In this document: positions 24,098-37,672 of the stretch, one piece after another
Position numbering within the stretch: the first letter of the stretch is position 1
Layout: each line of letters begins with the position of its first letter
DNA from: Planktothrix agardhii NIES-204
GTDB lineage: Bacteria > Cyanobacteriota > Cyanobacteriia > Cyanobacteriales > Microcoleaceae
Reading direction: 5' to 3'
NCBI GenBank assembly: GCA_003609755.1
Contig: AP017991.1
Coordinates: 3,583,001 to 3,647,000, forward strand
DNA length: 64,000 nucleotides
Made by a program: the position numbers and the translations under genes
Notes under the pieces: model-generated
Seen by the model: only the letters and a program-made list of their open reading frames with translations
What the model was told of the DNA's origin: nothing
Database searches by the model: none

Positions 24098-24364
24098 TGT
24101 GGCTGCTCCTCAACACGATATGAACGGGTGGAATCCTTCCCTCACAGGAGAGGAAAACTCAAATGTTTGTCACAATTCTTAATTTAATCATAACAGACTT
24201 AAAGTGGCAATGATTTTCCGACGATGGGCAGAAAAAGTTTAATTGAGACCGTTGATAATATCTACTGGGTGGTAGAGTTAGGCTACAAATACACTAATTG
24301 TTTCAATTTTTCAATGTCTCTGTGTTCAAAAATCTAAATTTCATCACAAAACAATGAATAATCC
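24098..24364. other. Intergenic region at left border of the cyanobactin cluster
   Basis: About 270 AT-rich bases between the lyase start and the macrocyclase stop. No gene or repeat is recognised. Confidence 0.4.
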
Positions 24365-26437
24365 CTACTTAGGTACAGACCAAGAACGAACTTGCCCCAA
24401 TGTCACTGGAATCATATAACTCACATCAATACTAAAAAGATAAACCTTTTTGGCTCTCAAACCCCGTTCAGGATCAAAAAACTTTAATTTCACATCCCAA
24501 CAATCACTATTAACCCGACAGAAGGGACTTTTTTCGATTTCAATTGTATCTAATTCCATCCCGGTAGAAACAGCTTGAGCAAAACTAGAAGCGGCTTGAA
24601 AAGCGTTAGTTGCTGCAAAATTTAACGCCCGGTCTTTAGAGGTTTTTCCTAAATTTTGCAAATCAAAATAGACTCTTTTCAGGAAACTACTTAAACTTCT
24701 TCGCATTTGAATCTCGTTAGCGTCAGCTAGTTCTTCAGAAAGGGTTTGTAAGGCTGCATCCACTAAACCGTTTACTTTCCAGCCGTACATTCCCCTAATA
24801 TTATTAATCGTAATTACAGGAACTTCTTGACCGGAAAATAGGGTAATTGTTTTATCAGTAATTTGCCCAGGAATACTCACCCTTTCAACATAATCATCAC
24901 TGCTTTCGGGTTCAATTTGTCCGGCTAACATTAAGTTTAACATTTCATAAACATCAGCCGCAAATCCTCCTTTTACTTCCAGGGCATAAACTGGGTTAAA
25001 TTCTTGGTTAATTGTCCAAATTAAGGACTTACTTTCTGAAGAATTTTCTGCTAAATAATTAACTATTTGAGAAGCATCATAGGGATTAGCTGGAATGGTT
25101 ATTCCGTCAATTTCTACGGGTGGCATTAATTGTTTAAAACTGTCTCGTCTCGCTTCACTCCCGAAGTCATAACCAATTGTTCCTAAAACATAAACTAATT
25201 TGGATGCAGCACTAGCAGTAATACCATTAGTAGGTTGACTAGCGGTAATATTAGCCACAGCTACGGCCGAAGAATTGCTGGCAATTACATTACTTAAAGT
25301 TAGTAATGGGCTGTTAATTGGGTTTTCTATTTTAGTGAGAGGAGTAATATTATTAACAGGAATAGTAATTTCTGATTGTCTGATTTCAGAAGTTTTAACC
25401 GTTGTTAATCGTTCTCCTGTTAATAAGTTATAAGCCCCCGGAATATTGAGTTTTCCTAATAAACAACGTTCCGGTTCTTCTACTTCATTCTGGTCGCAAG
25501 GAATCGCACTTTTTAAAATAGCCTGTCGCACGGTTTCAGCATTAGGTTTTTCCCCTCTTTGCAGTTGCATACTCATTAATAAAGCTGAAATTCCAGTAAC
25601 AATAGGAGCGGCACAACTTGTTCCTTTTTCTCTAACAGGTTCATCGGTACCAGGATTCGCACCTAAGATATTTTCACCGTTAGCCATTACGCCTTTATGT
25701 TGATATTCACCACCATAATTACTAAATTTAAAAGGCTGTCCATCATCACGCATTGCACCCACTGTTAAAACATCGGGTAAAATCGAAGGAATACACCAAC
25801 ATTCACCTTTATCATTACCACCCGGAGCCACAATTAAAATATTACTATCTTGGCATTGTTTCACAGCACGAGCAAAGATTTCTTGAGCCATTCCTGATTG
25901 AGTAGGATGACAAGCCGCAATATGAATAATATTAACTTCGGCTTTTAATGCTTCATTAATCGCATGGGTGAGATTAACAAAGGAAATAAAATCATCTCCA
26001 GCGAAGGAAATCGGAATATTAATCGCCGTACAATTAGGCGCAATACCCTCCACGGGAGAGCCATGCTGTCCTAAAATTGTACTCGAAATATGAGTAGCAT
26101 GACTAGATAAATCAATCCGTCTTTTAATGTCTTCAGGGAAATCTTTAAAAAAGGCTTCTCTTTCTTTTTTTGCTTCTTCTTTATCGTGATCTGGGTCTTC
26201 TTTTTTAGCCTTTTGTTGTTGATTAAATTCTGTCGCTAATTTTAAATAATGATAATACTCATCATTGAGTTCAATATCTTCTGCCCAATAGGGTTTAAAT
26301 TGAGTAATCTTTGCACCTTTAAAGCAAGCTCGATCTAAATCTGCTGCACCGTCAAGAATAGCAATTTTAATCCGAGAATCGCCTTTTGTATGAGTCCAAA
26401 GTTCGGGTATTCCAGGTATAGTAATTAAATCTGGCAT
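24365..26437 (-). CDS. Cyanobactin macrocyclase (PatG-type subtilisin-like protease)
   Basis: This 690-residue S8 protease has triad Asp29 (AILDGAAD), His113 (SSHATHIS) and Ser274 (GTSCAAP). Asp-His spacing is 84 residues, against 35 in the PatA-type protease of this cluster. The extra ~49 residues (43-100, rich in Lys/Glu/Asp) sit where PatG macrocyclases carry the lid that excludes water and holds the follower peptide. It should cleave before FAGDDAE and join the core head to tail. From ~410 it shares a domain with the PatA protein (GYDFGSEARRDSFKQLMP in both). No N-terminal oxidase domain is present, consistent with a pathway without thiazoles. It is divergent from precursor A. Confidence 0.88.
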   Translation of the reverse strand: MPDLITIPGIPELWTHTKGDSRIKIAILDGAADLDRACFKGAKITQFKPYWAEDIELNDEYYHYLKLATEFNQQQKAKKEDPDHDKEEAKKEREAFFKDFPEDIKRRIDLSSHATHISSTILGQHGSPVEGIAPNCTAINIPISFAGDDFISFVNLTHAINEALKAEVNIIHIAACHPTQSGMAQEIFARAVKQCQDSNILIVAPGGNDKGECWCIPSILPDVLTVGAMRDDGQPFKFSNYGGEYQHKGVMANGENILGANPGTDEPVREKGTSCAAPIVTGISALLMSMQLQRGEKPNAETVRQAILKSAIPCDQNEVEEPERCLLGKLNIPGAYNLLTGERLTTVKTSEIRQSEITIPVNNITPLTKIENPINSPLLTLSNVIASNSSAVAVANITASQPTNGITASAASKLVYVLGTIGYDFGSEARRDSFKQLMPPVEIDGITIPANPYDASQIVNYLAENSSESKSLIWTINQEFNPVYALEVKGGFAADVYEMLNLMLAGQIEPESSDDYVERVSIPGQITDKTITLFSGQEVPVITINNIRGMYGWKVNGLVDAALQTLSEELADANEIQMRRSLSSFLKRVYFDLQNLGKTSKDRALNFAATNAFQAASSFAQAVSTGMELDTIEIEKSPFCRVNSDCWDVKLKFFDPERGLRAKKVYLFSIDVSYMIPVTLGQVRSWSVPK

Positions 26438-26618
26438 AGTTATCGATCAAATAATTTTAGTTTACATTAGAAGCACTCTACTCTTGAGCATTGTACAGAG
26501 AAACTTTACCTATTTGCTAATAAGCATTGTTAATAATCATTACAAAGACTCAACCACCAGCATAACCTTAGATTATCATCCAGTCAGTCAAACTTCAACT
26601 AATCTGGACACACAAACA

Positions 26619-26774
26619 ATGATCAAGAAAAATATCCGTCCCCAACAATCTGCCCCGGTACAACGTCAAGTGACAACAACTTCTGGTCAAGGTGAAAAAG
26701 CATTATTTGCTAGTACAGAGTGTGATATTTTAACCAGACAATGTACTCCCTTTGCTGGAGACGACGCGGAGTAG
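26619..26774 (+). CDS. Cyanobactin precursor peptide A (Cys-containing core)
   Basis: A 51-residue precursor: leader MIKKNIRPQQSAPVQRQV, variable segment ending ECDILTRQCTP, follower FAGDDAE before TAG. The follower and the MxKKNxxPQQ leader are those of anacyclamide/piricyclamide/prenylagaramide precursors. The leader is more divergent than in the main array, and this is the only core with cysteines (two). With no heterocyclase in the cluster, they may stay free or form a disulfide. The gene is divergent from the macrocyclase, with a ~180-bp shared upstream region. Confidence 0.88.
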   Translation: MIKKNIRPQQSAPVQRQVTTTSGQGEKALFASTECDILTRQCTPFAGDDAE

Positions 26775-26817
26775 TCCCTTTAATCCTTAGCACTCACCTG
26801 AGTTTCTACCCCCCTAG

Positions 26818-26923
26818 CCCCCCTTAGTAAGGGGGGAATAATAAGCACAGCACTTTTAATCATCTTTAGTAAGGGGGAATAATAAGCAACTTTAGCCACT
26901 ATTACTAAGGGGGGAATAAGGAG
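26818..26923. repeat. REP-like palindrome cluster
   Basis: One complete palindrome CCCCCCTTAGTAAGGGGGG (26818-26836) is followed by two degenerate half-copies (TTAGTAAGGGGG and TTACTAAGGGGGG), each followed by AATAA-type tails. Relatives occur at 36935, 37505 and 39641, all within the cyanobactin locus. Confidence 0.75.
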
Positions 26924-26945
26924 CAACATAAATTACTAATCGGTT

Positions 26946-27152
26946 TCAAGCGACCTGTAATGTCTTTGGTTCTGGCAAAATTTTCCCTATTTGCTCATAA
27001 CCATACACTAAATCTTCTAAAACTTCCTTCGCGTTTTCTAGTGCTTCTTCATAGGTTTCGCCGTGAGTCCGTGCATATTGTCCCCACTCAGGTAAACTAG
27101 CAATATAAGCTTGATCTTCTTCAGACCACTGAATCAAAATACTATATTTCAT
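26946..27152 (-). CDS. hicB: HicB-family antitoxin
   Basis: A 68-residue HicB-like protein with the partial RNase H-like fold typical of the family (MKYSILIQWSEEDQAYIASL, then THGETYEEALENAKEVLE). It lacks an obvious C-terminal DNA-binding domain. Its ATG overlaps the hicA stop by four bases (ATGA), and toxin-first order is the norm for hicAB. It neutralises HicA. Confidence 0.9.
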   Translation of the reverse strand: MKYSILIQWSEEDQAYIASLPEWGQYARTHGETYEEALENAKEVLEDLVYGYEQIGKILPEPKTLQVA

Positions 27153-27376
27153 TGTTCATTTCCTTGTTCTAATTGTTCTAGTTCTTTTATGCTTGCCATT
27201 ATATCTTTTTCCTGATAGGTTTTTGCATCCTTGCTGTCTTTACCAGAGAGAACGACAGGTTTCGGTAAAAGGGGATGAATCCAGTAAGAATGACTACCTT
27301 TTCCCCGTTTATTAGGCAAGAGTATAAATCCTGCTTTCTGTAACATTTGTTTCAATTCTCCAACTTTTTTGGGCAT
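27149..27376 (-). CDS. hicA: HicA-family mRNA interferase toxin
   Basis: A 75-residue HicA with a dsRBD-like fold. The catalytic histidine lies in GKGSHSYWIHP, preceded by the AGFILLPNKRG strand. I choose the ATG at 27376 (MPKKVGELKQ). The longer reading upstream runs into the precursor B leader on the opposite strand and is an artefact. The toxin start lies only 34 bp from precursor B's ATG, where other cassettes have their promoter, so the module has replaced that promoter. Confidence 0.9.
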   Translation of the reverse strand: MPKKVGELKQMLQKAGFILLPNKRGKGSHSYWIHPLLPKPVVLSGKDSKDAKTYQEKDIMASIKELEQLEQGNEQ

Positions 27377-27410
27377 TTGTCGTAACTCATAAAATGTGGA
27401 GACACAAACC

Positions 27411-27497
27411 ATGACTAAGAAAAACCCCAAACCCCAACAAACCGCACCCGTACAACGGGAAATCAATACCACTTCCTCTGTGGGTGGTACAGGGTGA
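27411..27497 (+). pseudogene. Cyanobactin precursor B, N-terminal fragment
   Basis: A complete leader (begins MTKKNPKPQQTAPVQREIN, ends SSVGGTG) is followed at once by TGA. The core and follower are missing here, but a decayed follower lies at 28068-28095 beyond the RelE-like toxin-antitoxin pair. The usual upstream promoter is also gone, replaced by hicA. This is a precursor gene split by insertion and is not functional. Confidence 0.85.
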
Positions 27498-27510
27498 AAT
27501 TAAACAACTA

Positions 27511-27786
27511 TTATTTCGTACCAAGAATTTTATCGTACTCAGCATGAGAACCAATCCAAAACCAAACTATCTTGTCTTCATTGGGTTTCATTACTCCCAA
27601 TGCTCTCCATCCGATTCCTACTCTAACTGACCAAATATTTTCTTTGGGTTTGACTTTCTTAAACTCTAAACTCGGATGAAATGGATTTTCTTTCCAAAGC
27701 TCATAATTTTTATAGGAAGTTTCTTTGATTCTTTGAGGTAATACTGTAAATAATTTTCTAAAACTTCTAGTTCTTGATGATCGCAT
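27511..27786 (-). CDS. RelE-like toxin
   Basis: A 91-residue basic protein with the RelE-like pattern (RIKETSYKNYELWKENPFHP, then VRVGIGWRALG and a C-terminal WFWIGSHAEYDKIL). The HAEYDKIL ending is typical of a cyanobacterial ParE/RelE toxin subgroup. Its ATG overlaps the antitoxin stop (TAATG), giving tight coupling. The pair sits inside cyanobactin precursor B. Confidence 0.8.
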   Translation of the reverse strand: MRSSRTRSFRKLFTVLPQRIKETSYKNYELWKENPFHPSLEFKKVKPKENIWSVRVGIGWRALGVMKPNEDKIVWFWIGSHAEYDKILGTK

Positions 27787-28013
27787 TATTTCTCACCAAA
27801 ACCCTTATCTTCAGTCTTACCTTCTTCATCTTCAAGTAATGCTAACTGAGCCATTTCTTGAAAAATACCTAAATCCATATCTGGATTAGATAAACTTTCT
27901 TGCCATTTTAACTCATTCTCGATATCTTCGAGTAATTGTTGTGCAAGTTCATCCTGAAGATAATTTGAGAGTTTTTGAGCTTCTTGGAATGCTTTTTCTA
28001 GTAAATGAGTCAT
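27786..28013 (-). CDS. Antitoxin of RelE-like pair
   Basis: A 75-residue acidic, helical protein; start MTHLLEKAFQEAQKL at 28013. The longer upstream reading crosses the boundary into the precursor tail and is rejected. The long leucine-rich helix and Glu/Asp-rich C-terminus, with position directly before the toxin, support antitoxin identity. The family is the unnamed short antitoxin common next to such toxins in cyanobacteria. Confidence 0.78.
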   Translation of the reverse strand: MTHLLEKAFQEAQKLSNYLQDELAQQLLEDIENELKWQESLSNPDMDLGIFQEMAQLALLEDEEGKTEDKGFGEK

Positions 28014-28067
28014 AGATTCTTCCTGAGTTTCTGAAAACAAACAAAAGCAAAACCAATCTGGCAACAC

Positions 28068-28095
28068 CCTTTTGCGGGCGATGACGGGGGAGTAG
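28068..28095 (+). pseudogene. Cyanobactin precursor B, detached follower
   Basis: CCT TTT GCG GGC GAT GAC encodes PFAGDD exactly as in intact precursors, then an extra G shifts the frame so that the usual stop TAG (28093-28095) is out of register. It is separated from its leader (27411) by the toxin-antitoxin pair. Confidence 0.8.
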
Positions 28096-28128
28096 TCCCC
28101 CTAATTTTAGCACTCACCTCAAAAAATG

Positions 28129-28218
28129 TCAAAACTCTTTTTCTACTTGCCATGGGGTACGGTTAGCCTCAACGAATTGACGGACAATCCTTATAGGGCT
28201 TTCGGATACCTGGCACGG
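28129..28218 (-). pseudogene. REP-associated transposase 3' fossil (precursor B spacer)
   Basis: Ninety bases on the minus strand read PCQVSESP then RIVRQFVEANR and KEF with a stop. This matches the last ~30 residues of the intact transposase at 34832-35299, with one two-residue deletion. It keeps CQVSESP, which the main-array fossils have changed to CQVWSSP. Confidence 0.75.
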
Positions 28219-28310
28219 TGGGGAAGTTAAACGAGACTTAAATTTTTTGGGGGTGAGATTGGAGTCTTATTCGAGAGATAGAAATAATTAAAGAACAAGT
28301 TTTAGAAATC

Positions 28311-28895
28311 CTAGTTTGTTCCTAATTCCTCAAAAATAATATCCTCATAAACGGACTCAATGGGAAAGATTAAACCAATACTTTGTAAATCAATATTATC
28401 CCCCGATTGATAATTAAAAATTTCCCAATTACCACGATCATTTTTGCGGTATAAATCGATCGCTATTTTCTCGGCATCAACTAAAACATAATCTTGCAAA
28501 CTAGGATTGCGACGATACATCCTAAATTTATCCCCTCGGTCATAATTGGCTGTACTTGCAGATAAAACCTCAATAATTAGACAAGGATATTGAATCGCCT
28601 GAATTGCAGTGCGATCGCGCTCATCACAAGTAACGCTCACATCAGGATAAACATAATCTTTAGTTTCAAAAATATTTACACGACAATCGGAATTACCTAC
28701 CTGACAACCACCGCCCCGTAAATGACCTTTAAGGATAAAAATAATATTACTAGCAATTCGCCCATGATTTTGAGTCCCCTCACTCATGGCATAAACTCTA
28801 CCACTAAGATACTCATGGCGCAGCAGTTGTTGTTCTTCCCAAATAAAATATTCTTCGGGTGTTAACTTAGGAAATTTATCTTTTACAGCAATCAT
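28311..28895 (-). CDS. Uma2-family (DUF820) putative endonuclease
   Basis: This 194-residue protein has the Uma2 pattern: LTPEEYFIWEEQ at the start, LSGRVYAMSEGTQNHGRI, a YPDVSVTCD metal-binding segment and CLIIEVLSASTANYDRG-KF with the PD-(D/E)xK-like E-V core. Such genes are extremely numerous in cyanobacteria and their role is unknown. It lies next to the PIN-domain pair inside the cyanobactin array and probably arrived with it. Confidence 0.85.
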   Translation of the reverse strand: MIAVKDKFPKLTPEEYFIWEEQQLLRHEYLSGRVYAMSEGTQNHGRIASNIIFILKGHLRGGGCQVGNSDCRVNIFETKDYVYPDVSVTCDERDRTAIQAIQYPCLIIEVLSASTANYDRGDKFRMYRRNPSLQDYVLVDAEKIAIDLYRKNDRGNWEIFNYQSGDNIDLQSIGLIFPIESVYEDIIFEELGTN

Positions 28896-28913
28896 TTGAA
28901 TAGCCCTATTTTT

Positions 28914-29378
28914 TTATTTTAAAGGATTTAGATACTTATTCACAAATTCAGACGGCGTTAAACATTCAAATTCACCTGATTGTTCAACTAAAACCTTAAT
29001 TAACTTATGATTAGCAGATATAAAACATTGACATTGACCAACTTTTGCTGTTAAATAAACACCCACATCTTCACGAGGGATTACTCCCAAATCTTCCATT
29101 TCAGCTAACTCAACATCATCAATCTGAACATAACAAAACTTTAAATTTTGCCAAATTCTTCCAATTATTTCTCCACTCCAATCTTTATTTTTTAAACGTT
29201 TAGCAACTCTGGCAATTTGATCAATAAGTTCTTCAGAAATTATTACCCCCACAGAATTATCGTTTGGGGCTTCCCAACCTAACCATTTTAGAATTAAACC
29301 TTCAGGGCTTTGTCGCTCAACTGCGCCAATCAAATAAACATTGGTATCTAAAAAAATTAATTCAGGAATTTTCGTCAT
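28914..29378 (-). CDS. PIN-domain protein (VapC-like toxin)
   Basis: This 154-residue protein starts with the PIN signature (IFLDTNVYLIGA) and continues with acidic residues in EDVGVYLTAKVGQCQCFISANHK, consistent with the metal-binding core of PIN RNases. The final FECLTPSEFVNKYL matches the family ending. The ATG overlaps the upstream small gene by four bases, as in a toxin-antitoxin operon. RNA target unknown. Confidence 0.78.
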   Translation of the reverse strand: MTKIPELIFLDTNVYLIGAVERQSPEGLILKWLGWEAPNDNSVGVIISEELIDQIARVAKRLKNKDWSGEIIGRIWQNLKFCYVQIDDVELAEMEDLGVIPREDVGVYLTAKVGQCQCFISANHKLIKVLVEQSGEFECLTPSEFVNKYLNPLK

Positions 29379-29701
29379 TGTATTGAATCTTGTTTTTGTT
29401 GACGTTCTTGAGATATTTCCCGTTTAATATCTTGGACAAGATCAACAATTTTCTCCCTTGAATCATAACCTGCTTCGGTCAAAGATTGTTTTAATTCCAG
29501 TTGTAATTGTTCTGCTGACATTAAAGGATATTGTTGATATTCTTTGATTTGTTCCCAAAAGTCATTAACCTCTGTTTCTGTTTCTTCCCAAAGAATAATA
29601 ACTCTTACCGAACTGGGTGGAGTCCCTTTAATTGGATAGTCTAAAGATAATTGACCCACCCTATCTATCTTTCCAGTAGATTGAATTACTTTTTTCATCA
29701 T
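29375..29701 (-). CDS. Antitoxin-like partner of the PIN protein
   Basis: This 108-residue protein has an N-terminal beta-strand segment (IDRVGQLSLDYPIKGTPPSS, with VRVIILWEE) and a helical C-terminus ending in a charged tail. It resembles the small DUF-type antitoxins preceding PIN genes in cyanobacteria. Assignment rests on the four-base overlap and size. Confidence 0.68.
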   Translation of the reverse strand: MMKKVIQSTGKIDRVGQLSLDYPIKGTPPSSVRVIILWEETETEVNDFWEQIKEYQQYPLMSAEQLQLELKQSLTEAGYDSREKIVDLVQDIKREISQERQQKQDSIQ

Positions 29702-29877
29702 GAATCTCCTTTTATCCTTTATGATGATAGCTTGTAAGCAAAAGCCTTTGTATTTTCTGGCACATTCTTCTAAACTGTTCCCTAATTGTTAGAAAAGCGG
29801 GATGCCATATTGCCATCATATTATGTTAAAAATTATCGTCAAGTCAAATTTCACCTTAAATTCTGGAGAAACAAACC

Positions 29878-30090
29878 ATGACTAAGAAAAACCTCAAACC
29901 CCAACAAGCCGCACCCGTGCAACGGGAAATTAATACCACTTCCTCTGTGGGTGGTACAGGGCTGACACCCCAAAATATAGCATATAGTATTATTGGAGCG
30001 ATTTTGGGTCACAAAACTCCTTTCAGTTCGGGGCTTTCCGTTACCTGGCACGGTAGAGAAGTGAAACGAGATTTAGATTTTTTGGGGTGA
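29878..30090 (+). pseudogene. Cyanobactin precursor C, follower lost
   Basis: An intact leader (SSVGGTGLTP class) is followed by a core-like QNIAYSIIGAILGHKTPF. The frame then jumps into SSGLSVTWHGREVKRD, the sequence that in other units lies within and after the transposase fossil (CAGTTCGGGGCTT). A deletion has fused the Pro-Phe codons to the spacer and removed AGDDAE, so the macrocyclase should not recognise it. The canonical -35/-10 pair seen in later cassettes is also missing upstream. Confidence 0.85.
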
Positions 30091-30169
30091 GTGATTGATG
30101 ATAGCTTGTAAGCGATATTACTTAATATTAATTACAGGAAGCATTTAGTCAAGAATTCCCACAAAAATA

Positions 30170-30199
30170 TTGACAAGTCCTGAGCTATTTGGTTACGAT
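30170..30199 (+). promoter_or_regulatory. Promoter of cassette D
   Basis: TTGACA (30170-30175), 18-bp spacer, TACGAT (30194-30199), 45 bp before the ATG. A sigma-70 type pair repeated in nearly every cassette. Confidence 0.65.
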
Positions 30200-30243
30200 A
30201 CCCGTCAAGTCAAATTTCACCTTAAATTCTGGAGAAACCAACC

Positions 30244-30414
30244 ATGACTAAGAAAAACCTCAAACCCCAACAAGCCGCTCCTGTACAACGGGAAATCAAT
30301 ACCACTTCCTCTATGGGTCGTGATGGTGCGATCGCACCTTCCGAATGGACGAGGGATAACGAAGGAAATATGCTATGGGTGAGAAAAGACTATTATGGAA
30401 ATGTAATAGGTTAG
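30244..30414 (+). pseudogene. Cyanobactin precursor D, degenerate follower
   Basis: The leader is intact up to SSMGRDGAIAP. The variable part WTRDNEGNMLWVRKDYYGN then ends in VIG and TAG (30412-30414). Beyond the stop, in the same frame, GDSLTGRIE and TAA occupy the place of PFAGDDAE, so the follower has mutated and is cut off by a nonsense codon. It contains a GCGATCGC octamer in the altered leader end, not seen in other units. It is probably non-functional, or a linear peptide at most. Confidence 0.75.
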
Positions 30415-30692
30415 GGGGGTGATTCCTTGACCGGACGCATCGAGTAATCCCCTTGATTCTAACACTCACCTCAAAAAGTGTCAAAAGTCTTTTTCTGTCT
30501 CCATTGGCGCACGGTTAGCCTCTATGAATTGACTCACAATCCTAGTCAGTTCGAGGCTTGACCATACCTGGCACGGTAGAAAAGTAAAACGAGATTTAGA
30601 TTTTTTGGGGTGAGTGATTGATGATAGCTTGTAAGCGATATTACTTAATATTAATTACAGGAAGCATTTAGTCAAGAAATCTCACAAAAATA

Positions 30693-30722
30693 TTGACAAG
30701 TCTTGAGCTATTTGGTTACGAT
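30693..30722 (+). promoter_or_regulatory. Promoter of cassette E
   Basis: TTGACA (30693-30698), 18-bp spacer, TACGAT (30717-30722). The ribosome binding site here reads TAGAG instead of TGGAG, a one-base weakening shared with cassette H. Confidence 0.65.
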
Positions 30723-30766
30723 CCCCATCAAGTCAAATTTCACCTTAAATTCTAGAGAAACAAACC

Positions 30767-30922
30767 ATGACTAAGAAAAACCTCAAACCCCAACAAGCCG
30801 CTCCTGTGCAACGGGAAATCAATACCACTTCCTCTGAGGCTGGTACAGGGCTGACACCCCTTGTGACAACCAGCAGCTACGAGTTATATAAGGATCCTTT
30901 TGCGGGCGACGACGCGGAGTAG
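30767..30922 (+). CDS. Cyanobactin precursor peptide E
   Basis: A 51-residue precursor. The leader (MTKKNLKPQQAAPVQR, SSEAGTGLTP class) is followed by the core region LVTTSSYELYKDP, follower FAGDDAE and TAG. The Pro before the follower is the usual last core residue needed for macrocyclisation. Two tyrosines could accept a prenyl group from the PagF-like enzyme. The exact N-terminal cleavage point is not defined by sequence alone. Confidence 0.9.
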   Translation: MTKKNLKPQQAAPVQREINTTSSEAGTGLTPLVTTSSYELYKDPFAGDDAE

Positions 30923-31167
30923 TCCTCTTGATTCTAACACTCACCTCAAAAAGTGTCAAAAGTCTTTTTCTGTCTCCATTGGCGCACGGTTAGCTTCTAT
31001 GAATTGACTCACAATCCTTGTCAGTTCGGGGCTTGACCATACCTGGCACGGTAGAAAAGTAAAACGAGATTTAGATTTTTTGGGGTGAGTGGTTGATGAT
31101 AGCTTGTAAGCAATATTACTTAATATTAATTACAGGAAGCATTTAGTCAAGAATTCTCACAAAAATA

Positions 31168-31197
31168 TTGACAAGTCCTGAGATATTTGGTTACGAT
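31168..31197 (+). promoter_or_regulatory. Promoter of cassette F
   Basis: TTGACA (31168-31173), 18-bp spacer, TACGAT (31192-31197), 45 bp before ATG. Confidence 0.65.
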
Positions 31198-31241
31198 ACC
31201 CATCAAGTCAAATTTCACCTTAAATTCTGGAGAAACAAACC

Positions 31242-31382
31242 ATGACTAAGAAAAACCTCAAACCCCAACAAGCCGCTCCTGTGCAACGGGAAATCAATAC
31301 CACTTCCTCTGAGGGTGGTACAGGGCTGACACCCCAGAATGTACATTATTTAGAGCCTTTTGCGGGCGACGACGCAGAGTAG
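31242..31382 (+). CDS. Cyanobactin precursor peptide F
   Basis: A 46-residue precursor with leader class SSEGGTGLTP, a very short core region QNVHYLEP (eight residues or fewer, depending on the cleavage site), FAGDDAE and TAG. The single Tyr is a candidate O-prenylation site. With cassette L it is the shortest of the array, close in size to known prenylagaramides and anacyclamides. Confidence 0.9.
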   Translation: MTKKNLKPQQAAPVQREINTTSSEGGTGLTPQNVHYLEPFAGDDAE

Positions 31383-31630
31383 TCCCCTTGATTCTAACAC
31401 TAACCTCAAAAAAAAGTGTCAAAAGTCTTTTTCTACTTGCCATGGCGCACGGTTCGCATCTATGAATTGACTCACAATCCTAGTCAGTTCGGGGCTTGAC
31501 CATACCTGGCACGGTAGAAAAGTAAAACAAGATTTAGATTTTTTGGGGTGAGTGATTGGGAATAGCTTGCAAGCAATATTACTTAATATTATTTACAGGA
31601 AGCATTTGGTTAAGAACTCTCACAAAAATA

Positions 31631-31660
31631 TTGACAAGTCCTGAGCTATTTGGTTACGAT
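31631..31660 (+). promoter_or_regulatory. Promoter of cassette G
   Basis: TTGACA (31631-31636), 18-bp spacer, TACGAT (31655-31660). The upstream block carries TTTGGTTAAGAACTCTC, shared only with cassette J. Confidence 0.65.
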
Positions 31661-31704
31661 ACCCATCAAGTCAAATTTCACCTTAAATTCTGGAGAAACA
31701 AACC

Positions 31705-31885
31705 ATGACTAAGAAAAACCTCAAACCCCAACAAGCCGCTCCTGTACAACGGGAAATCAATACCACTTCCTCCACTTCCTCTGTGGATGGTACAGGGCTG
31801 ACACCCCATATCACCGGGGAGTGGGCACAGGGGAAGGAGATAAAGAGATGGAGGTGATCCTTTTGCAGGCGACGACGCAGAGTAG
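31705..31885 (+). pseudogene. Cyanobactin precursor G, frameshifted core
   Basis: The leader is variant, with a duplicated TCCACTTCC giving SSTSSVDGTGLTP. The core frame reads HITGEWAQGKEIKRWR and stops at TGA 31855-31857. The follower DPFAGDDAE with TAG (31883-31885) is intact but one register off, so a single indel in the core separates leader and follower. Either a true decay event or a sequencing error would explain it. Cassette M shows the same kind of lesion. Confidence 0.82.
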
Positions 31886-32130
31886 TCCCCTTGATTCTAA
31901 CACTCACCTCAAAACGTGTCAAAAGTCTTTTTCTGCCTCCCTTGGCGCACGGTTTGCCTCTATGAATTGACTCACAATCCTAGTCAGTTCGAGGCTTGAC
32001 CATACCTGGCACGGTAGAAAAGTAAAACAAGATTTAGATTTTTTGGGGTAAGTGATTGGGAATAGCTTGCAAGCAATATTACTTAATATTAATTACAGGA
32101 AGCATTTAGTCAAGAATTCCCACAAAAGTA

Positions 32131-32160
32131 TTGACAAGTCCTGAGCTATTTGGTTACGAT
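32131..32160 (+). promoter_or_regulatory. Promoter of cassette H
   Basis: TTGACA (32131-32136), 18-bp spacer, TACGAT (32155-32160). Ribosome binding site is the weaker TAGAG, as in cassette E. Confidence 0.65.
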
Positions 32161-32204
32161 ACCCATCAAGTCAAATTTCACCTTAAATTCTAGAGAAACA
32201 AACC

Positions 32205-32348
32205 ATGACTAAGAAAAACCTCAAACCCCAACAAGCCGCTCCCGTACAACGGGAAATCAATACCACTTCTTCTGAGGGTGGTACAGGGCTGACACCCCTT
32301 TGGGTGTGGCTCCCATGGGCTCCTTTTGCGGGCGACGATGCGGAATAG
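32205..32348 (+). CDS. Cyanobactin precursor peptide H (Trp-rich core)
   Basis: A 47-residue precursor with leader class SSEGGTGLTP, core region LWVWLPWAP, FAGDDAE and TAG. Three tryptophans and no tyrosine make a very hydrophobic predicted macrocycle. If the local prenyltransferase is Tyr-specific like PagF, this product should stay unmodified. The follower uses GAT and GAA codons differing from neighbours, a sign of slight independent drift. Confidence 0.9.
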   Translation: MTKKNLKPQQAAPVQREINTTSSEGGTGLTPLWVWLPWAPFAGDDAE

Positions 32349-32604
32349 TTCCCTTGATTCTAACACTCACCTCAAAAAGTATTAAAAGTCTTTTTCTGCC
32401 TCCCTTGGCGCACGGTTAGCTTCTATGAATTGACTCACAATCCTAGTCAGTTCGGGGCTTGACCATACCTGGCACGGTAGAAAAGTAAAACGAGATTTAG
32501 ATTTTTTGGGGTAAGTGGTTGATGATAGCTTGCAAGCAATATTACTTAAGTATTACTTAATATTAATTACAGGAAGCATTTAGTCAAGAATTCCCACAAA
32601 AATA

Positions 32605-32634
32605 TTGACAAGTCCTGAGATATTCGGTTACGAT
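32605..32634 (+). promoter_or_regulatory. Promoter of cassette I
   Basis: TTGACA (32605-32610), 18-bp spacer, TACGAT (32629-32634). The block upstream carries a small TTACTTAAGTATTACTTAA duplication shared with cassette L. Confidence 0.65.
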
Positions 32635-32678
32635 ACCCATCAAGTCAAATTTCACCTTAAATTCTGGAGAAACAAACC

Positions 32679-32834
32679 ATGACTAAGAAAAACCTCAAAC
32701 CCCAACAAGCCGCTCCTGTGCAACGGGAAATCAATACCACTTCCTCTGAGGCTGGTACAGGGCTGACACCCCTATTTTACGGATTCTACACAGACGACTT
32801 TGGAATTCCTTTTGCGGGCGACGACGCGGAGTAG
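32679..32834 (+). CDS. Cyanobactin precursor peptide I
   Basis: A 51-residue precursor with leader class SSEAGTGLTP, core region LFYGFYTDDFGIP, FAGDDAE and TAG. It is aromatic-rich, with two Tyr and three Phe, plus two adjacent Asp. The tyrosines are candidate prenylation sites. The downstream fossil uses TAA instead of TGA as its minus-strand stop, as do the one after H and the intact transposase gene. Confidence 0.9.
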   Translation: MTKKNLKPQQAAPVQREINTTSSEAGTGLTPLFYGFYTDDFGIPFAGDDAE

Positions 32835-33079
32835 TCCTCTTGATTCTATCACTCACCTCAAAAAGTATTAAAAGTCTTTTTCTGCCTCCCTTGGCGCACG
32901 GTTTGCCTCTATGAATTGACGCACAATCCTAGTCAGTTCGGGGCTTGACCATACCTGGCACGGTAGAAAAGTAAAACAAGATTTAGATTTTTTGGGGTGA
33001 GTGATTGGGAATAGCTTGCAAGCAATATTACTTAATATTATTTACAGGAAGCATTTGGTTAAGAACTCTCACAAAAATA

Positions 33080-33109
33080 TTGACAAGTCCTGAGATATTC
33101 GGTTACGAT
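33080..33109 (+). promoter_or_regulatory. Promoter of cassette J
   Basis: TTGACA (33080-33085), 18-bp spacer, TACGAT (33104-33109). The upstream block matches that of cassette G. Confidence 0.65.
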
Positions 33110-33153
33110 ACCCATCAAGTCAAATTTCACCTTAAATTCTGGAGAAACAAACC

Positions 33154-33321
33154 ATGACTAAGAAAAACCTCAAACCCCAACAAGCCGCTCCTGTGCAACG
33201 GGAAATCAACACCACTTCCTCTGAGGGTGGTACAGGGCTGACACCCCAGATGGTTATTGAAGAGTTGGGGGGAGCGATTGACGGTATTTACGGGCCTTTT
33301 GCGGGCGACGACGCAGAGTAG
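33154..33321 (+). CDS. Cyanobactin precursor peptide J
   Basis: A 55-residue precursor with leader class SSEGGTGLTP, core region QMVIEELGGAIDGIYGP (17 residues), FAGDDAE and TAG. The core is acidic and longer than typical cyanobactin cores (about 6-20 residues). One Tyr lies close to the C-terminal Pro. Confidence 0.88.
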   Translation: MTKKNLKPQQAAPVQREINTTSSEGGTGLTPQMVIEELGGAIDGIYGPFAGDDAE

Positions 33322-33562
33322 TCCCCTTGATTCTAACACTAACCTCAAAAAGTGTCAAAAGTCTTTTTCTACTTGCCAAGGCGCACGGTTCGCCTCTATG
33401 AATTGACGCACAATCCTTGTTAATTCAGGGCTTTCGGATACCTGATACCCTTGGGAAGTAAAACGAGACTTGGATTGAAGTGAGTGGTTGATGATAGCTT
33501 GTAAGCAATATTACTTAATATTAATTACAGGAAGCATTTAGTCAAGAATTCCCACAAAAATA

Positions 33563-33596
33563 TTGACAAGTCCTGAGATATTCGTTCGGTTACGAT
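33563..33596 (+). promoter_or_regulatory. Altered promoter of cassette K
   Basis: TTGACA (33563-33568) and TACGAT (33591-33596) are separated by 22 bp instead of 18, because of a four-base insertion (TTCGTTCGG). Such spacing should weaken sigma-70 promoter activity strongly. Confidence 0.6.
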
Positions 33597-33640
33597 ACCC
33601 ATCAAGTCAAATTTCACCTTAAATTGTGGAGACACAAACC

Positions 33641-33832
33641 ATGACTAAGAAAAACCTCAAACCCCAACAAGCCGCACCCGTGCAACGGGAAATTAATACC
33701 ACTTCCTCTGTGGGTGGTACAGGGCTGACACCAGTCAGAATGGGTAGTAATTATGACATTCCAGAGGGACAATCATATCAGCAGCTATTGGATTCAAATG
33801 ACACTCCTTTTGCGGGCGACGACGCAGAGTAG
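33641..33832 (+). CDS. Cyanobactin precursor peptide K (unusually long core)
   Basis: A 63-residue precursor with leader class SSVGGTGLTP. The variable segment is 25 residues (VRMGSNYDIPEG, then QSYQQLLDSNDTP) before FAGDDAE and TAG. It holds an internal Pro as well as the terminal one, so a smaller product is possible if the N-terminal cut is deeper. The upstream sequence GTGGAGACACAAACC is shared only with precursor B. An in-frame GTG at 33626 is an alternative start but ATG 33641 matches all siblings. The promoter spacing is abnormal, so expression may be low. Confidence 0.85.
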   Translation: MTKKNLKPQQAAPVQREINTTSSVGGTGLTPVRMGSNYDIPEGQSYQQLLDSNDTPFAGDDAE

Positions 33833-34088
33833 TCCCCTTGATTCTAACACTAACCTCAAAAAGTGTCAAAAGTCTTTTTCTACTTGCCAAGGCGCACGGT
33901 TAGCCTCTATGAATTGACGCACAATCCTAGTCAGTTCGGGGCTTGACCATACCTGGCACGGTAGAAAAGTAAAACGAGATTTAGATTTTTTGGGGTAAGT
34001 GGTTGATGATAGCTTGCAAGCAATATTACTTAAGTATTACTTAATATTAATTACAGGAAGCATTTTGTCAAGAATTCCCACAAAAGTA

Positions 34089-34118
34089 TTGACAAGTCTT
34101 GAGCTATTTGGTTACGAT
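34089..34118 (+). promoter_or_regulatory. Promoter of cassette L
   Basis: TTGACA (34089-34094), 18-bp spacer, TACGAT (34113-34118). Confidence 0.65.
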
Positions 34119-34162
34119 ACCCATCAAGTCAAATTTCACCTTAAATTCTGGAGAAACAAACC

Positions 34163-34303
34163 ATGACTAAGAAAAACCTCAAACCCCAACAAGCCGCTCC
34201 TGTGCAACGGGAAATCAACACCACTTCCTCTGAGGGTGGTACAGGGCTGACACCCCAGTGGTTACATGGTTGGGGGCCTTTTGCGGGCGACGACGCAGAG
34301 TAA
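34163..34303 (+). CDS. Cyanobactin precursor peptide L
   Basis: A 46-residue precursor with leader class SSEGGTGLTP, core region QWLHGWGP, FAGDDAE and TAA (most others use TAG). It carries two Trp and no Tyr. With F it is the shortest core of the array. Confidence 0.9.
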   Translation: MTKKNLKPQQAAPVQREINTTSSEGGTGLTPQWLHGWGPFAGDDAE

Positions 34304-34548
34304 TCCCCTTGATTCTAACACTCACCTCAAAAAATGTCAAAAGTCTTTTTCTGCCTCCCTTGGCGCACGGTTAGCCTCTATGAATTGACTCACAATCCTA
34401 GTCAGTTCGGGGCTTGACCATACCTGGCACGGTAGAGAAGTAAAACGAGATTTAGATTTTTGGAGGTGAGTGGTTGGGAATAGCTTGCAAGCAATATTAC
34501 TTAATATTAATTACAGGAAGCATTTAGTCAAGAAATCTCACAAAAGTA

Positions 34549-34578
34549 TTGACAAGTCCTGAGATATTTGGTTACGAT
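34549..34578 (+). promoter_or_regulatory. Promoter of cassette M
   Basis: TTGACA (34549-34554), 18-bp spacer, TACGAT (34573-34578). Confidence 0.65.
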
Positions 34579-34622
34579 ACCCATCAAGTCAAATTTCACC
34601 TTAAATTCTGGAGAAACAAACC

Positions 34623-34798
34623 ATGACTAAGAAAAACCTCAAACCCCAACAAGCCGCTCCTGTGCAACGGGAAATCAATACCACTTCCTCTGAGGCTGGT
34701 ACAGGGCTGACACCCCTTGACTGGAACCGAATGAACGACAACCTTTCGTGGTATCAACCGAGGGTATAGATCCTTTTGCGGGCGACGACGCGGAGTAG
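34623..34798 (+). pseudogene. Cyanobactin precursor M, frameshifted core
   Basis: The leader is intact (SSEAGTGLTP class), then LDWNRMNDNLSWYQPRV and TAG at 34767-34769. The follower DPFAGDDAE with TAG 34796-34798 is intact but lies in the other register, the same offset as in cassette G. It is the last unit of the array and directly precedes the complete transposase gene. Confidence 0.82.
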
Positions 34799-34831
34799 TC
34801 CTCTTGATTCTATCACTCACCTCAAAAAGTA

Positions 34832-35299
34832 TTAAAAGTCTTTTTCTGCCTCCCTTGGCGCACGGTTTGCCTCTATGAATTGACGCACAATCCTAGTCAG
34901 TTCGGGGCTTTCGGATACCTGGCACGGGGTTTTGTAGCGCAGGGTATTTAAAGCCCTGTCCTTGTCTGAAGCAGGAAAGCCATCACTAAAATAGCGTTTT
35001 TCCCAAAAGTGTCCTGTTCTCCTTAACATACGGTTGAAACACATCGCCGTGTACCAATTGAGAAAGTGCATAATTTTAGGTAAATCTTCGGGTTGGGCAG
35101 GTTCAATCAGGTAATGGACATGATTAGACATGATACAGAGAGCATAAAGCTTGAAATTGTATTTGTTCAAAGCCTTCTTGATCGCGTAAAGAAACACTTC
35201 CCGACATTCACGCTTTTGCAGTTTAAACTCACGGTTATTGCAACGGATGGTGATATGGTAAGAATATCCAGACTGTAAATTTCGAGGTTTTCTAGGCAT
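34832..35299 (-). CDS. REP-associated tyrosine transposase (Y1/IS200-like)
   Basis: A 155-residue Y1-type transposase. I choose the start MPRKPRNLQSGYSYHITIRC at 35299 over a longer reading to 35371. Visible motifs are the metal-binding HVHYLIEP (HUH) and a later MHFLNWYTAMCFNRML, where the catalytic tyrosine is expected, plus GHFWEKRYFS. RAYT-class enzymes act on short REP palindromes and are usually single-copy domesticated genes. Its last ~31 codons recur as fossils after nearly every precursor cassette. It ends inside the shared spacer of cassette M and is divergent from the prenyltransferase by 30 bp. Confidence 0.85.
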   Translation of the reverse strand: MPRKPRNLQSGYSYHITIRCNNREFKLQKRECREVFLYAIKKALNKYNFKLYALCIMSNHVHYLIEPAQPEDLPKIMHFLNWYTAMCFNRMLRRTGHFWEKRYFSDGFPASDKDRALNTLRYKTPCQVSESPELTRIVRQFIEANRAPREAEKDF

Positions 35300-35329
35300 A
35301 CCTTTTAACAAGATAAAAACTAGCCATTT

Positions 35330-36253
35330 ATGATAGCTGATGTAATCCAAAAAGACAGACTCAAAGAACAAAAACTACAGTTTATTCGCAATCATCAACA
35401 AGCCTTTGATGTTGAACCAATTTATCCGCTCCCCCTGTTTGAAGACTTTGTAATGGGTGTAGAAGGTGACTGTAGTATTGAAGTATCTTGTAAGATAGAA
35501 TCAGACAAGTTGATTGCCTCAAGATTCTTGCTTTTTTTCAAAGATAAGACGCAACAATGGCAAAAATATCTCCATCAATCTTTGACATTTTTTAGTCAAG
35601 TAGAAAACCGTGTTGGTGTGCAAATTGACTATTCTCTATTACAGCAATTTTTAGGATCTAATTTTGATTTTAGTAAAGTGAGGACTTTTACTACGGGTAT
35701 TGATTTACGAAATAACCTTGCTGACTCAAGTTTGAAAATTCACTTTAGAATTGAAGACTATCCCGAAAAACTAGAAACTAGCCTAGCCTTGAGCGGTGAT
35801 AGCATTAGTAGTTTAATAAAAGAACTTCCTAGTTATCCTCTCACTAAACTAATTCCTCAAATCGGCTTTGATTTTTATTTCAATGGCAGTAATGAAATCG
35901 AGCTTTATATTGAAGTAGGAGAAGATGATTTTCAACATCCTGAAATCAAAGAATTTCTATGGCAGAGATTTTCAAAGATTGCTTTAGAACCACTAAAAGC
36001 ATCTAGTCTGTTCCATCTTGGGTTATCTAAGGCGAATAACGATCCTGTCCTCTACTATCATCTTAAAAACAAAAAAGACTTAGTAAACTACTTCAATCTT
36101 AATGATATGGGGCAAAGAGTTCACAGTTTTTATCAGCACCAAGATGTTGGAGTACCAATGTGGGTAGGTACTGCCCAAAAAGAGTTAGAAAAAACAAGAA
36201 TTGAAAATATTAGACTGTATTATTACAAATCATTTAAAATGGAGTCAAATTGA
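35330..36253 (+). CDS. pagF: Cyanobactin prenyltransferase (PagF/LynF/TruF family)
   Basis: A 307-residue ABBA-fold prenyltransferase. Long segments (VIQKDRLKEQKLQFIRNHQQ, FDVEPIYPLPLFEDFV, the ending ENIRLYYYKSFKMESN) match, as I recall, PagF of the prenylagaramide pathway, which adds dimethylallyl to tyrosine oxygen of cyclic peptides. It therefore probably prenylates Tyr in cores E, F, I, J or K. A geranyl donor (as for PirF) or Trp acceptor (as for KgpF) cannot be ruled out without aligning active-site residues. Its stop overlaps the next gene by four bases (ATGA). It starts right after the transposase promoter region. Confidence 0.92.
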   Translation: MIADVIQKDRLKEQKLQFIRNHQQAFDVEPIYPLPLFEDFVMGVEGDCSIEVSCKIESDKLIASRFLLFFKDKTQQWQKYLHQSLTFFSQVENRVGVQIDYSLLQQFLGSNFDFSKVRTFTTGIDLRNNLADSSLKIHFRIEDYPEKLETSLALSGDSISSLIKELPSYPLTKLIPQIGFDFYFNGSNEIELYIEVGEDDFQHPEIKEFLWQRFSKIALEPLKASSLFHLGLSKANNDPVLYYHLKNKKDLVNYFNLNDMGQRVHSFYQHQDVGVPMWVGTAQKELEKTRIENIRLYYYKSFKMESN

Positions 36254-36831
36254 TGTTAATCACGAAACCCCGCTTTCAAACTTTTGCTGAGTATTTACAA
36301 TATGACGATAATTCAGAAAAACTCTGTGAATTATTTAATGGAGAATTGGTAGAAATGCCTCCAGAATCTGGACTTAACTTTCAAATTGCTAATCGCCTTT
36401 TTTTGGTTTTTGCTTTAATACTAGGAACTGATAGAGTTAGAGGTCATGGCTTAGAATTAGAAGTCAGAGGTGAACCGAAAAACCGTTACCCTGATTTGAC
36501 CATTATTCGAGAAGAACATATTCAATTACTCTCCAAGAGAAATACTATTCTTCTTTCCATGTCACCACCTTTATTAGTCATTGAAGTGGTTAGTCCTGGA
36601 GAAATTCAAAGAGATAGAGATTACATCGCCAAAAAATTACAATATCAAGATTGTGGCATTCCCGAATACTGGATTGTTGATCCTCAAACTCAAACCATTT
36701 TAGTCTTAGAACTAACTGGAGATACCTATAGGGAAATCGGTAATTTTACCAACGATGATTTAGTTGCCTCTCCTGGACTTAAAGAATTAAACTTAAAAGT
36801 CTCCGAGGTATTTAATTCAACCAGTTTATAA
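36250..36831 (+). CDS. Uma2-family (DUF820) putative endonuclease
   Basis: A 193-residue Uma2 protein (FAEYLQYDDNSEKLCELFNG near the start; YPDLTIIREEH; LLVIEVVSPGEIQRDRDYI with the catalytic-type E-V core; PEYWIVDPQTQTI). Start MLITKPRFQTF follows the ATGATG that overlaps the prenyltransferase stop, so both are translated from one mRNA. No role of Uma2 in cyanobactin maturation is known. It may be a passenger or a regulatory addition. Confidence 0.87.
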   Translation: MMLITKPRFQTFAEYLQYDDNSEKLCELFNGELVEMPPESGLNFQIANRLFLVFALILGTDRVRGHGLELEVRGEPKNRYPDLTIIREEHIQLLSKRNTILLSMSPPLLVIEVVSPGEIQRDRDYIAKKLQYQDCGIPEYWIVDPQTQTILVLELTGDTYREIGNFTNDDLVASPGLKELNLKVSEVFNSTSL

Positions 36832-36922
36832 ATATTAGACTTTGTTATTACAAATCCTTGACAAATTAAATAACCAAGAAAAACATCAACATGAACAAAA
36901 TGACTAACATTCCCATCTGTTT

Positions 36923-37083
36923 CTACCCCCCTAACCCCCCTTACTAAGGGGGGATAAGAGGAAGCAGGAAGCACCTCTAGCTACTCTTACTAAAGGGGGA
37001 ATAAGAGGAAGCATCCCTAGCTACTCTTACTCAGGGGAAATTAAAAGCTTTTAGCCCCCCTTACTAATGGGGGTTGGGGGGTT
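36923..37083. repeat. REP-like palindrome cluster
   Basis: A perfect CCCCCCTTACTAAGGGGGG (36935-36953) is followed by partial copies near 36985, 37025 and 37053. These fill the gap between the Uma2 and DUF559 genes. Confidence 0.75.
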
Positions 37084-37126
37084 ATGTATTAAAGAACAAA
37101 ATTATGATTAAATATGACTAAACTAT

Positions 37127-37516
37127 ATGACCGAACTTTATAACAGAAATTCTGAAAAAGAGAAACGACAATTTTTACGCAATAACATGACTCCTGCGGA
37201 ACAAAAATTGTGGTTACAACTTAAAGGAAAGCAATTAGAAAACTGTAAATTTCGGCGACAATATAGTGTAGCTCAATTTATTATTGATTTTTATAGCCCA
37301 GAAATTAAACTTGCTATTGAAGTTGATGGCGACAGTCATTTTCAAGAAGGAGTGCAAGAATACGACCAAGAAAGACAACAGTTTATCGAGTCAGCTAGAA
37401 TTACTTTTCTGAGGTTTACCAATGATGACGTATATGATAATATTTCAGCAGTTTGTGAAATCATCAGAGATAAAATTCAATCCTTGAGAAATCTTCCAGA
37501 AGCTCCCCCTTACTAA
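37127..37516 (+). CDS. DUF559 (Vsr-like) endonuclease-domain protein
   Basis: A 129-residue protein with the DUF559 pattern (RNNMTPAEQKLWLQLKGKQ, then KFRRQYSVAQFIIDFYSPE and LAIEVDGDSH), a PD-(D/E)xK fold related to very-short-patch repair nucleases. Catalytic-type Asp, Glu-Val-Asp and the final FLRFTNDDV strand are present. The last codons (PEAPPY and stop) are supplied by the start of the 38-bp tandem repeat. It is frequent in cyanobacteria as a mobile passenger. A link to the cyanobactin pathway is not evident. Confidence 0.82.
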   Translation: MTELYNRNSEKEKRQFLRNNMTPAEQKLWLQLKGKQLENCKFRRQYSVAQFIIDFYSPEIKLAIEVDGDSHFQEGVQEYDQERQQFIESARITFLRFTNDDVYDNISAVCEIIRDKIQSLRNLPEAPPY

Positions 37517-37640: not shown

Positions 37641-37672
37641 GGGGGTAAAACAAATACAATCAGATAACCAAA

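Follow-up and report, generated by a model that had tools for sequence, protein, structure and literature searches.

A pag-type cyanobactin cluster of Planktothrix agardhii NIES-204 with a thirteen-locus precursor array and cores that differ as whole blocks

Introduction

How precursors of ribosomally synthesized and post-translationally modified peptides (RiPPs) keep their leader yet change their core is the question raised by a locus of the bloom-forming cyanobacterium Planktothrix agardhii NIES-204 in which cyanobactin precursor genes are repeated beside one set of biosynthetic genes. The stretch of DNA analysed (hereafter the window, 64,000 nucleotides) covers positions 3,583,001-3,647,000 of AP017991.1, the largest contig (4.78 Mb) of a 5.08-Mb genome in five contigs, corresponding to a chromosome and four plasmids, AP017991 to AP017995 (PMC9398003). 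We conclude, with a probability of around 0.92, that the locus is a pag cluster in which one enzyme set serves up to eight products, encoded in a cassette array with block-swapped cores. The family membership of its parts is given by profile and structure matches, and the chemistry proposed is that expected by analogy with characterised pag and pir clusters. Coordinates are those of the window, and G and L numbers are our own handles.

One set of pag-type enzymes

A complete cyanobactin cluster of the pag (prenylagaramide/planktocyclin) type spans 24.3-40.2 kb of the window, in the order pagG (minus strand), 13 precursor loci, a transposase gene, pagF, a Uma2 gene, a DUF559 gene, pagA, pagB and pagC. 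Its biosynthetic genes are the following:

24365-26437, minus strand: pagG, macrocyclase (PatG-type subtilase); TIGR03895, 837 bits; Pfam Peptidase_S8, PatG_D and PatG_C
35330-36253, plus strand: pagF, prenyltransferase; TIGR04445, 409 bits
37673-39640, plus strand: pagA, N-terminal (leader) protease; TIGR03895, 950 bits
39706-39915, plus strand: pagB; TIGR04220
39963-40160, plus strand: pagC; TIGR04447

The two subtilases were assigned, as PatG-like and as the A protease respectively, because of their solved relatives: the subtilase part of pagG matched chains 4H6X and 4AKS better than the A-type chains, and pagA showed few differences across 303 aa from 4H6W, a solved 'N-terminal cyanobactin protease'. 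For pagF the nearest solved chains were PagF (5TTY, 6PGN), with PirF (6PGM) after these. TIGR04445, TIGR04220 and TIGR04447 were all above cut-off, indicating a LynF/TruF/PatF-type prenyltransferase and PatB and PatC proteins. None of the 16 non-precursor open reading frames (ORFs) of 24-41 kb contained a YcaO-type domain (PatD heterocyclase) in a Pfam scan, the rest of the genome not having been searched for one. With an A protease, a G macrocyclase, TIGR04446 precursors, F, B and C proteins and no PatD in the cluster, the locus has the composition of the prenylagaramide/piricyclamide/anacyclamide type.

Thirteen precursor loci, eight of them intact

A six-frame scan of the window detected 13 precursor leaders, and TIGR04446 run on the whole genome returned the same 13 loci, all above cut-off, with none elsewhere and no match in any of 14 control genomes. 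Eight loci (A, E, F, H, I, J, K, L) are intact from the ATG through the FAGDDAE-stop, every one with Pro as last core residue, and five (B, C, D, G, M) are broken:

26619-26774, plus strand: precursor A, intact, conserved-core lineage (...ALFASTECDILTRQCTP-FAGDDAE), TIGR04446 above cut-off, without transposase tail
27411-28091, plus strand: precursor B, broken; leader at 27411, follower relic at about 28071, transposase-tail relic behind it at 28132-28266
29878-30090, plus strand: precursor C, most of follower lost
30244-30414, plus strand: precursor D, core and follower degenerate
30767-30922, plus strand: precursor E, intact, core LVTTSSYELYKDP, TIGR04446
31242-31382, plus strand: precursor F, intact, core QNVHYLEP, TIGR04446
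31705-31885, plus strand: precursor G, core out of frame (52 nt)
32205-32348, plus strand: precursor H, intact, core LWVWLPWAP
32679-32834, plus strand: precursor I, intact, core LFYGFYTDDFGIP
33154-33321, plus strand: precursor J, intact, core QMVIEELGGAIDGIYGP
33641-33832, plus strand: precursor K, intact, 25-residue core VRMGSNYDIPEGQSYQQLLDSNDTP, TIGR04446
34163-34303, plus strand: precursor L, intact, core QWLHGWGP
34623-34798, plus strand: precursor M, core out of frame (56 nt)
30170-34578, plus strand: putative promoters, TTGACA-18-TACGAT by consensus scan, located some 45 nt ahead of the start codon in nine of the eleven array units C-M, namely D, E, F, G, H, I, J, L and M

The units repeat with a period of 460-523 bp, or 366 bp from C to D. 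A collapsed or broken assembly is not suggested, since the array is interior to a 4.78-Mb contig of a five-contig genome. An earlier reading of this DNA from its letters and translated ORFs alone (the original prediction) had proposed a cyanobactin locus with one macrocyclase, one leader protease and one prenyltransferase, and thirteen precursor loci of which eight seemed functional; the enzymes are borne out by the two TIGR03895 matches, TIGR04445 and the solved relatives, and the count by the agreement of the six-frame scan with TIGR04446.

Leaders are kept while cores change as blocks

Mean identity among the seven intact array units was 0.97 in leaders, 0.92 on the follower side, 0.93 upstream and 0.50 in cores, this last value being slightly above three shuffled-core sets (0.42-0.45). 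The near-invariant leaders and hypervariable cores of the original prediction were thus recovered, its example cores being present as written; its placing of the core between LTP and FAGDDAE in every copy holds for the array units and fails for A, which lacks LTP and belongs to another precursor lineage. Seven of the nine variable leader columns (units E-M) are third codon positions, and leaders therefore appear to be kept by purifying selection. Strictness at the synonymous sites of follower codons was not seen in 50 precursors, where most follower residues use two to four codons.

Units I and M show no difference in 93 leader and 126 follower-side bases (the 219 bases nearest the core) and have unrelated cores of 36 and 56 nt. 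Likewise, the J leader is the L leader (0/93 differences) and the J follower side is nearly that of K (2/126). Because point mutation cannot give these I/M and J/L/K patterns, the alignments indicate that cores are replaced as whole blocks by exchange.

Precursor number and known clusters

Among 388 genomes of the class, 11 had a TIGR04446 match (8 of them above cut-off), the window genome with 13 precursors and the next highest with 6; many genomes in these surveys are draft assemblies that may have collapsed arrays. In 59 relatives, the window genome included, the next-highest count was 4, one of these below cut-off, and two further samples, each centred on a different point (77 and 80 genomes), gave no higher count. 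With TIGR03678 as a yardstick in the 388 genomes, other genomes reached at most 6 (G302, a cross-match below cut-off) and 5 (G313).

The combinatorial-library idea is reportedly already found in the title of a 2006 paper. Planktothrix strains are described as carrying 1 to 12 copies of pagE, with 12 in No66 and 7 in NIES-596 (PMC9366434, PMC4663559), and a review from 2015 counts as many as 10 precursors in a single cluster (PMC4663559); outside the genus, Cyanothece PCC 7425 has 9+1 thcE, and Arthrospira has 6 artE, with 3 more in another strain (PMC9366434, PMC4663559). The view that precursors number from one to a handful in known clusters does not agree with these numbers (PMC9366434), and the locus is not an undescribed system, since a multi-copy pag cluster is already described in the same genus (PMC9366434, PMC4663559). 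Comparing precursor numbers across clusters, which had been proposed as a check, shows that arrays of up to 12 were known and that 13 lies slightly above any found. Given those published counts, the array is of a known kind, and 13 is a modest extension, slightly above the highest number in the literature and the genomes searched.

The pag cluster of Planktothrix shares with the window the genus, genes A, B, C, E, F and G, the GLTP site in many active precursors and the presence of several inactive ones; the window differs in its 13 loci, 8 of them intact. Published pag products are prenylagaramides B and C and planktocyclin (PMC9366434, PMC4663559), and none of the published cores INPYLYP, QAYLGIPLP and that of planktocyclin, PGLVMFGV, is present in the window, where pagF is, by alignment, clearly diverged from solved PagF. 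The pag cluster has been reported as the least conserved biosynthetic cluster in a set of 20 Planktothrix. Piricyclamide (pir) clusters of Microcystis share the precursor family, hypervariable cores, a prenyltransferase and the absence of a heterocyclase, but have 1 to 4 precursors, against 13 in the window (PMC3428304). The 25-residue core of precursor K (33641-33832) is above the 7-17 residues of piricyclamides (22 as predicted maximum; PMC3428304).

A conserved precursor beside the array

The core of precursor A differs by 2 changes from its orthologue in Planktothrix sp. PCC 11201, and its pattern TxCDxxTxxCxP is conserved between genera, being also found in Snowella (STHCDIATRQCFP), in G182 (CTYCDIETRMCTP; same family as Dolichospermum by genome label) and in pirE4 of Microcystis PCC 7005 (TFCDLATKQCYP; PMC4663559). 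Its position is also similar: A adjoins pagG, the Snowella counterpart lies between C and G by coordinates, and pirE4, which precursor A resembles and which is likewise near G, is listed between PirC and PirG with one ORF between (PMC3428304). The transposase tail described below is lacking after the A-type precursors of the window and PCC 11201 and is present after the similar G182 precursor. Since the A pattern recurs across genera while the other cores vary, the cluster seems to make one conserved product, probably of a disulfide type, alongside a library that changes.

A transposase lineage linked to cyanobactin precursors

Each array precursor is followed by a block of sequence that belongs to a Y1/HUH (RAYT-like) transposase gene, being the 3' end of this convergent gene:

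30484-34466, minus strand: transposase 3'-end remnants after units D-L (tblastn); stop-to-stop distance 33 or 36 nt in E-L
34832-35299, minus strand: truncated RAYT-like Y1/HUH transposase gene, convergent with M; residues 1-122 plus tail; Y1_Tnp in Pfam

In each of units E-M the transposase 3' end lies 33-36 nt after the precursor stop, and the stop-to-stop distance, measured for 22 precursors with a tail (these nine window units among them), is 33 nt in 20 and 36 and 34 nt in the other two. A tail was found behind 34 of 49 distinct precursors scored, one of them (L062 12478) with a score of 44, barely above the control maximum of 43, which came from random one-strand stretches taken from the window (n = 2000). 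The 15 tail-less precursors are the A-type ones of the window and PCC 11201, one further from PCC 11201, five of a different leader type (L009-L013), two of Microcystis L046, four of the six in G302 and one of L065.

Residues 1-122 of the window transposase are 95% identical to a 253-aa gene of PCC 11201, and convergent full-length or near full-length genes (239-271 aa) stand beside cyanobactin genes at six loci besides the window (L043, L017, L018, L021, L044, L047). Nine copies were read, and five are intact: PCC 11201 (253 aa), G409, G337, G093 and L047 (LacPavin metagenome-assembled genome, MAG). The other four are L044 from Dolichospermum (239 aa with a different end), the interrupted Microcystis copies L045 and L049, and the truncated window copy, which looks dead. 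The Y1_Tnp domain (PF01797) is present in these transposases, and the HUH motif at residue 59 and LRYIHxNP, whose LRY tyrosine we take to be the catalytic residue, in six of six copies outside the window, the window copy having HUH only. The name 'RAYT-like' is used because scores fall below the cut-off of NF047646, the NCBIfam model for RAYT (80 bits), with 53 for the window copy and 62, 62.4, 56.4 and 67.6 for four full-length relatives. The window transposase shares with RAYTs the Y1_Tnp domain, the HUH motif and a single genomic copy; it is unlike them in these scores, in being tied to cyanobactin genes and in the lack of visible repetitive extragenic palindromic (REP) elements, one array unit having been searched and found to contain AT-rich palindromes but no clear REP site.

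Matches to the transposase at E 1e-30 occur in 75 of the 388 genomes, the window copy being the only one in its own genome. The five best (72-87% identical) are all in cyanobactin clusters: those of G409, G337, G093 and G227 adjoin precursors and that of G403 adjoins the prenyltransferase, no TIGR04446 precursor being found in G403. Seven cyanobactin-linked proteins formed one clade (100/100) apart from 19 unlinked ones, which include second copies from two of the same genomes; this tree omits the two interrupted Microcystis copies, draws the 19 from the better of the other matches and not from all, and has a long L047 row. The ratio of non-synonymous to synonymous substitution rates (dN/dS) was 0.06-0.22 in 13 of 21 pairs, with 8 saturated and a few more nearly so, and by this measure the linked lineage is under purifying selection. 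At least four families have retained the lineage next to cyanobactin genes (by genome labels: the window's, that of G409, G337 and G403, and those of G093 and G227).

In the sph and art clusters a transposase also lies between E and F, as in the window (PMC6162287, PMC4663559); in the accessible text it is an annotation without further comment, and a lineage shared with the window copy is putative. The published sphE primer PreR, reverse-complemented, agrees by eye with 28 of 28 bases of the G409 tail DNA (PMC6162287). No literature linking 'cyanobactin' with 'RAYT' was found in a search outside which most subscription papers lay, nor was 'REP-associated' found in the cyanobactin papers among the matches listed, and the steady association of precursors with one transposase lineage may be new.

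Other readings of the block were set aside. Minus-strand TTGACA-17-TAGAAT sites occur just behind several precursor stops (30931-34340), pointing into the precursors; they overlap the tail and may be due to chance. An antisense promoter, for which such sites in several genera were considered, was rejected as main explanation because on the minus strand the block codes for the C-terminal end of a protein. A conserved RNA hairpin (a weak stem in RNAalifold, -2.8 kcal/mol, compared with a mean of -0.3 and a lowest value of -3.25 in 50 column shuffles) was also discarded, conservation of the block following from the coding opposite strand. A +1 frame ORF after the follower is open in many genera, stopped in H, I and M of the window and shifted in L045, and the minus-strand gene was preferred.

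Neighbouring genes and other features

Several small toxin-antitoxin-like and other genes lie between precursors A-C. ORFs for HicA and, below cut-off, a HicB-like protein lie at 26946-27472. Inside precursor B (27511-28067, minus strand) the leader and the follower relic are separated by an ORF for a ParE-like toxin and, in antitoxin position, a small ORF with no Pfam match, as though these had been inserted into the B core. At the position 'SSLFHLGLSK' of pagF (35330-36253), the window and Snowella PagF have His, two solved PagF chains Phe and Ala, and PirF Gly; presumably this position sets the choice between prenyl and geranyl donors. After pagF stands a Uma2-family gene (36250-36831), and a similar ORF follows the Snowella prenyltransferase (L048 1833-2408); a Uma2 gene is also listed after SphF (PMC6162287). 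A repeat with CCCCCTTACTAAAGGAGG is present in three copies 38 bp apart at 37505-37642, between the DUF559 gene and pagA, with similar pieces at 26803-26920 and 36905-37079. Rfam gave nothing at gathering scores in 23000-42000.

Proposed mechanism and alternative explanations

We propose that each intact precursor is probably made from its own small transcription unit, that PagA would cleave the leader ahead of the core, that PagG would cleave before FAGDDAE and join the core ends into a ring, and that PagF may prenylate the Tyr of some rings, so that one enzyme set could yield up to eight different products. For the seven array cores the predicted cyclic [M+H]+ values are 1497.747 (E), 981.479 (F), 1149.624 (H), 1536.705 (I), 1743.862 (J), 2809.273 (K) and 962.463 (L), to which each prenyl group would add 68.063; cleavage by PagA one residue further on would lower them by the mass of that residue. 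The array would have grown by tandem duplication and exchange of cassettes of about 475 bp, each comprising promoter, leader, core, follower and the 3' end of the convergent RAYT-like transposase gene. Leaders would be under purifying selection, cores swapped as whole blocks and some copies lost to decay; the sequence pattern is seen, the swap mechanism is our proposal.

Several observations weigh against this reading. No terminator-like site was found between the array cassettes, which makes the separate transcription of units a guess, and the cores of A, H and L (3/8 intact) contain no Tyr, which makes prenylation of their products doubtful. Further upstream, I and M differ at 11/209 bases and by a gap. 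A test for independent assortment of the left and right halves of the units gave r = -0.02 (p = 0.49) and does not discriminate, four contiguous controls being non-significant as well (p 0.10-0.63). The search for core copies covered core K and the D stretch only, and as evidence of templated cores it gave nothing convincing in 20 genomes (that of the window and 19 others): the best match outside itself had E = 0.12 for core K (72 nt), which is chance level, and E = 0.009 for the D stretch (118 nt).

Cores need not have been exchanged within the array. Whole cassettes could instead be imported from other strains or genera by homologous recombination in the leader and follower arms, with ready-made cores and the transposase as a hitch-hiker, a possibility we regard as rather unlikely. 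The cassette of a Snowella MAG has the same 93/93 leader bases as unit E, with 0/19 fourfold sites different, and its alignment, 91% over 251 nt, takes in the promoter region, while fourfold differences number 105/250 in the linked pagA, 136/222 in pagG and 33/55 in pagF; an identical leader with enzyme genes so far apart suggests exchange of cassettes alone. However, the Snowella contig ends inside the cassette and may be a chimeric assembly, and among the cassettes listed no core is common to two species. The sole repeated core, LFSVLGNQSNP, is shared by two precursors within one genome (G302, contig L062). That genome, outside the order of the window's by genome label, has a pag-type cluster with six precursors, in which pagA is 93% identical and the prenyltransferase 45% identical to those of the window; its contig also carries nifB, nifEN and nifS, and therefore does not look like a Planktothrix contaminant. 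It is also rather unlikely that the array is mostly decaying, with one or two precursors expressed and the others relics. Five of 13 loci are broken, the transposase is truncated and some published Planktothrix strains are without active pagE (PMC9366434), but eight loci are intact, with in-frame cores all ending in Pro, and leader changes fall mainly at third positions.

The transposase may either act on the cassettes or hitch along when clusters move. That it is active, as a Y1/HUH single-strand DNA nuclease by family that cuts at or near cassettes and promotes copying and core exchange, the tails being its traces, would fit the full-length or nearly full-length convergent genes at six other loci, the frequency (34/49) and spacing (33 nt in 20/22) of the tails, the single clade of seven linked genes with low dN/dS, the place of the five best matches in cyanobactin clusters and the HUH and LRYIHxNP motifs of all six copies outside the window. 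We consider it improbable nonetheless. Any duplication ending beyond a precursor would drag along the piece of a gene that ends about 33 nt away, so the array tails are expected from the geometry whether the transposase acts or is carried, and are not proof of a role. Moreover, the window copy is truncated, without LRYIHxNP and the sole match in its genome, and no more than 5 of the 9 copies read are intact. Break points of the arrays are not the same in different genera (G302 and the window), which fits independent duplications, and no clear REP site appeared in the unit examined; 15/49 precursors are tail-less, one of the 34 tails scores 44 and several dN/dS pairs are near saturation. With the same low expectation we consider the idea that one RAYT-like HUH lineage was recruited as a dedicated precursor-diversifying enzyme, generating tandem cassettes and block exchange of cores, so that its tail would mark the hypervariable precursors and not the conserved-core precursor A.

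Significance

With up to eight predicted ring peptides and an array slightly longer than those described, the pag cluster of this strain extends a known family. The wider point is how RiPP precursors keep a leader yet change a core, and the I/M pair represents a block replacement in which the adjacent bases are unchanged. A recruited transposase, if true, would be a natural route, beside retroelement-type diversity generation, for aiming turnover at one short coding segment. The transposase lineage whose closest members were, in our sample, found only in cyanobactin clusters can serve as a marker of core turnover at the least, and as a candidate for it that can be tested.

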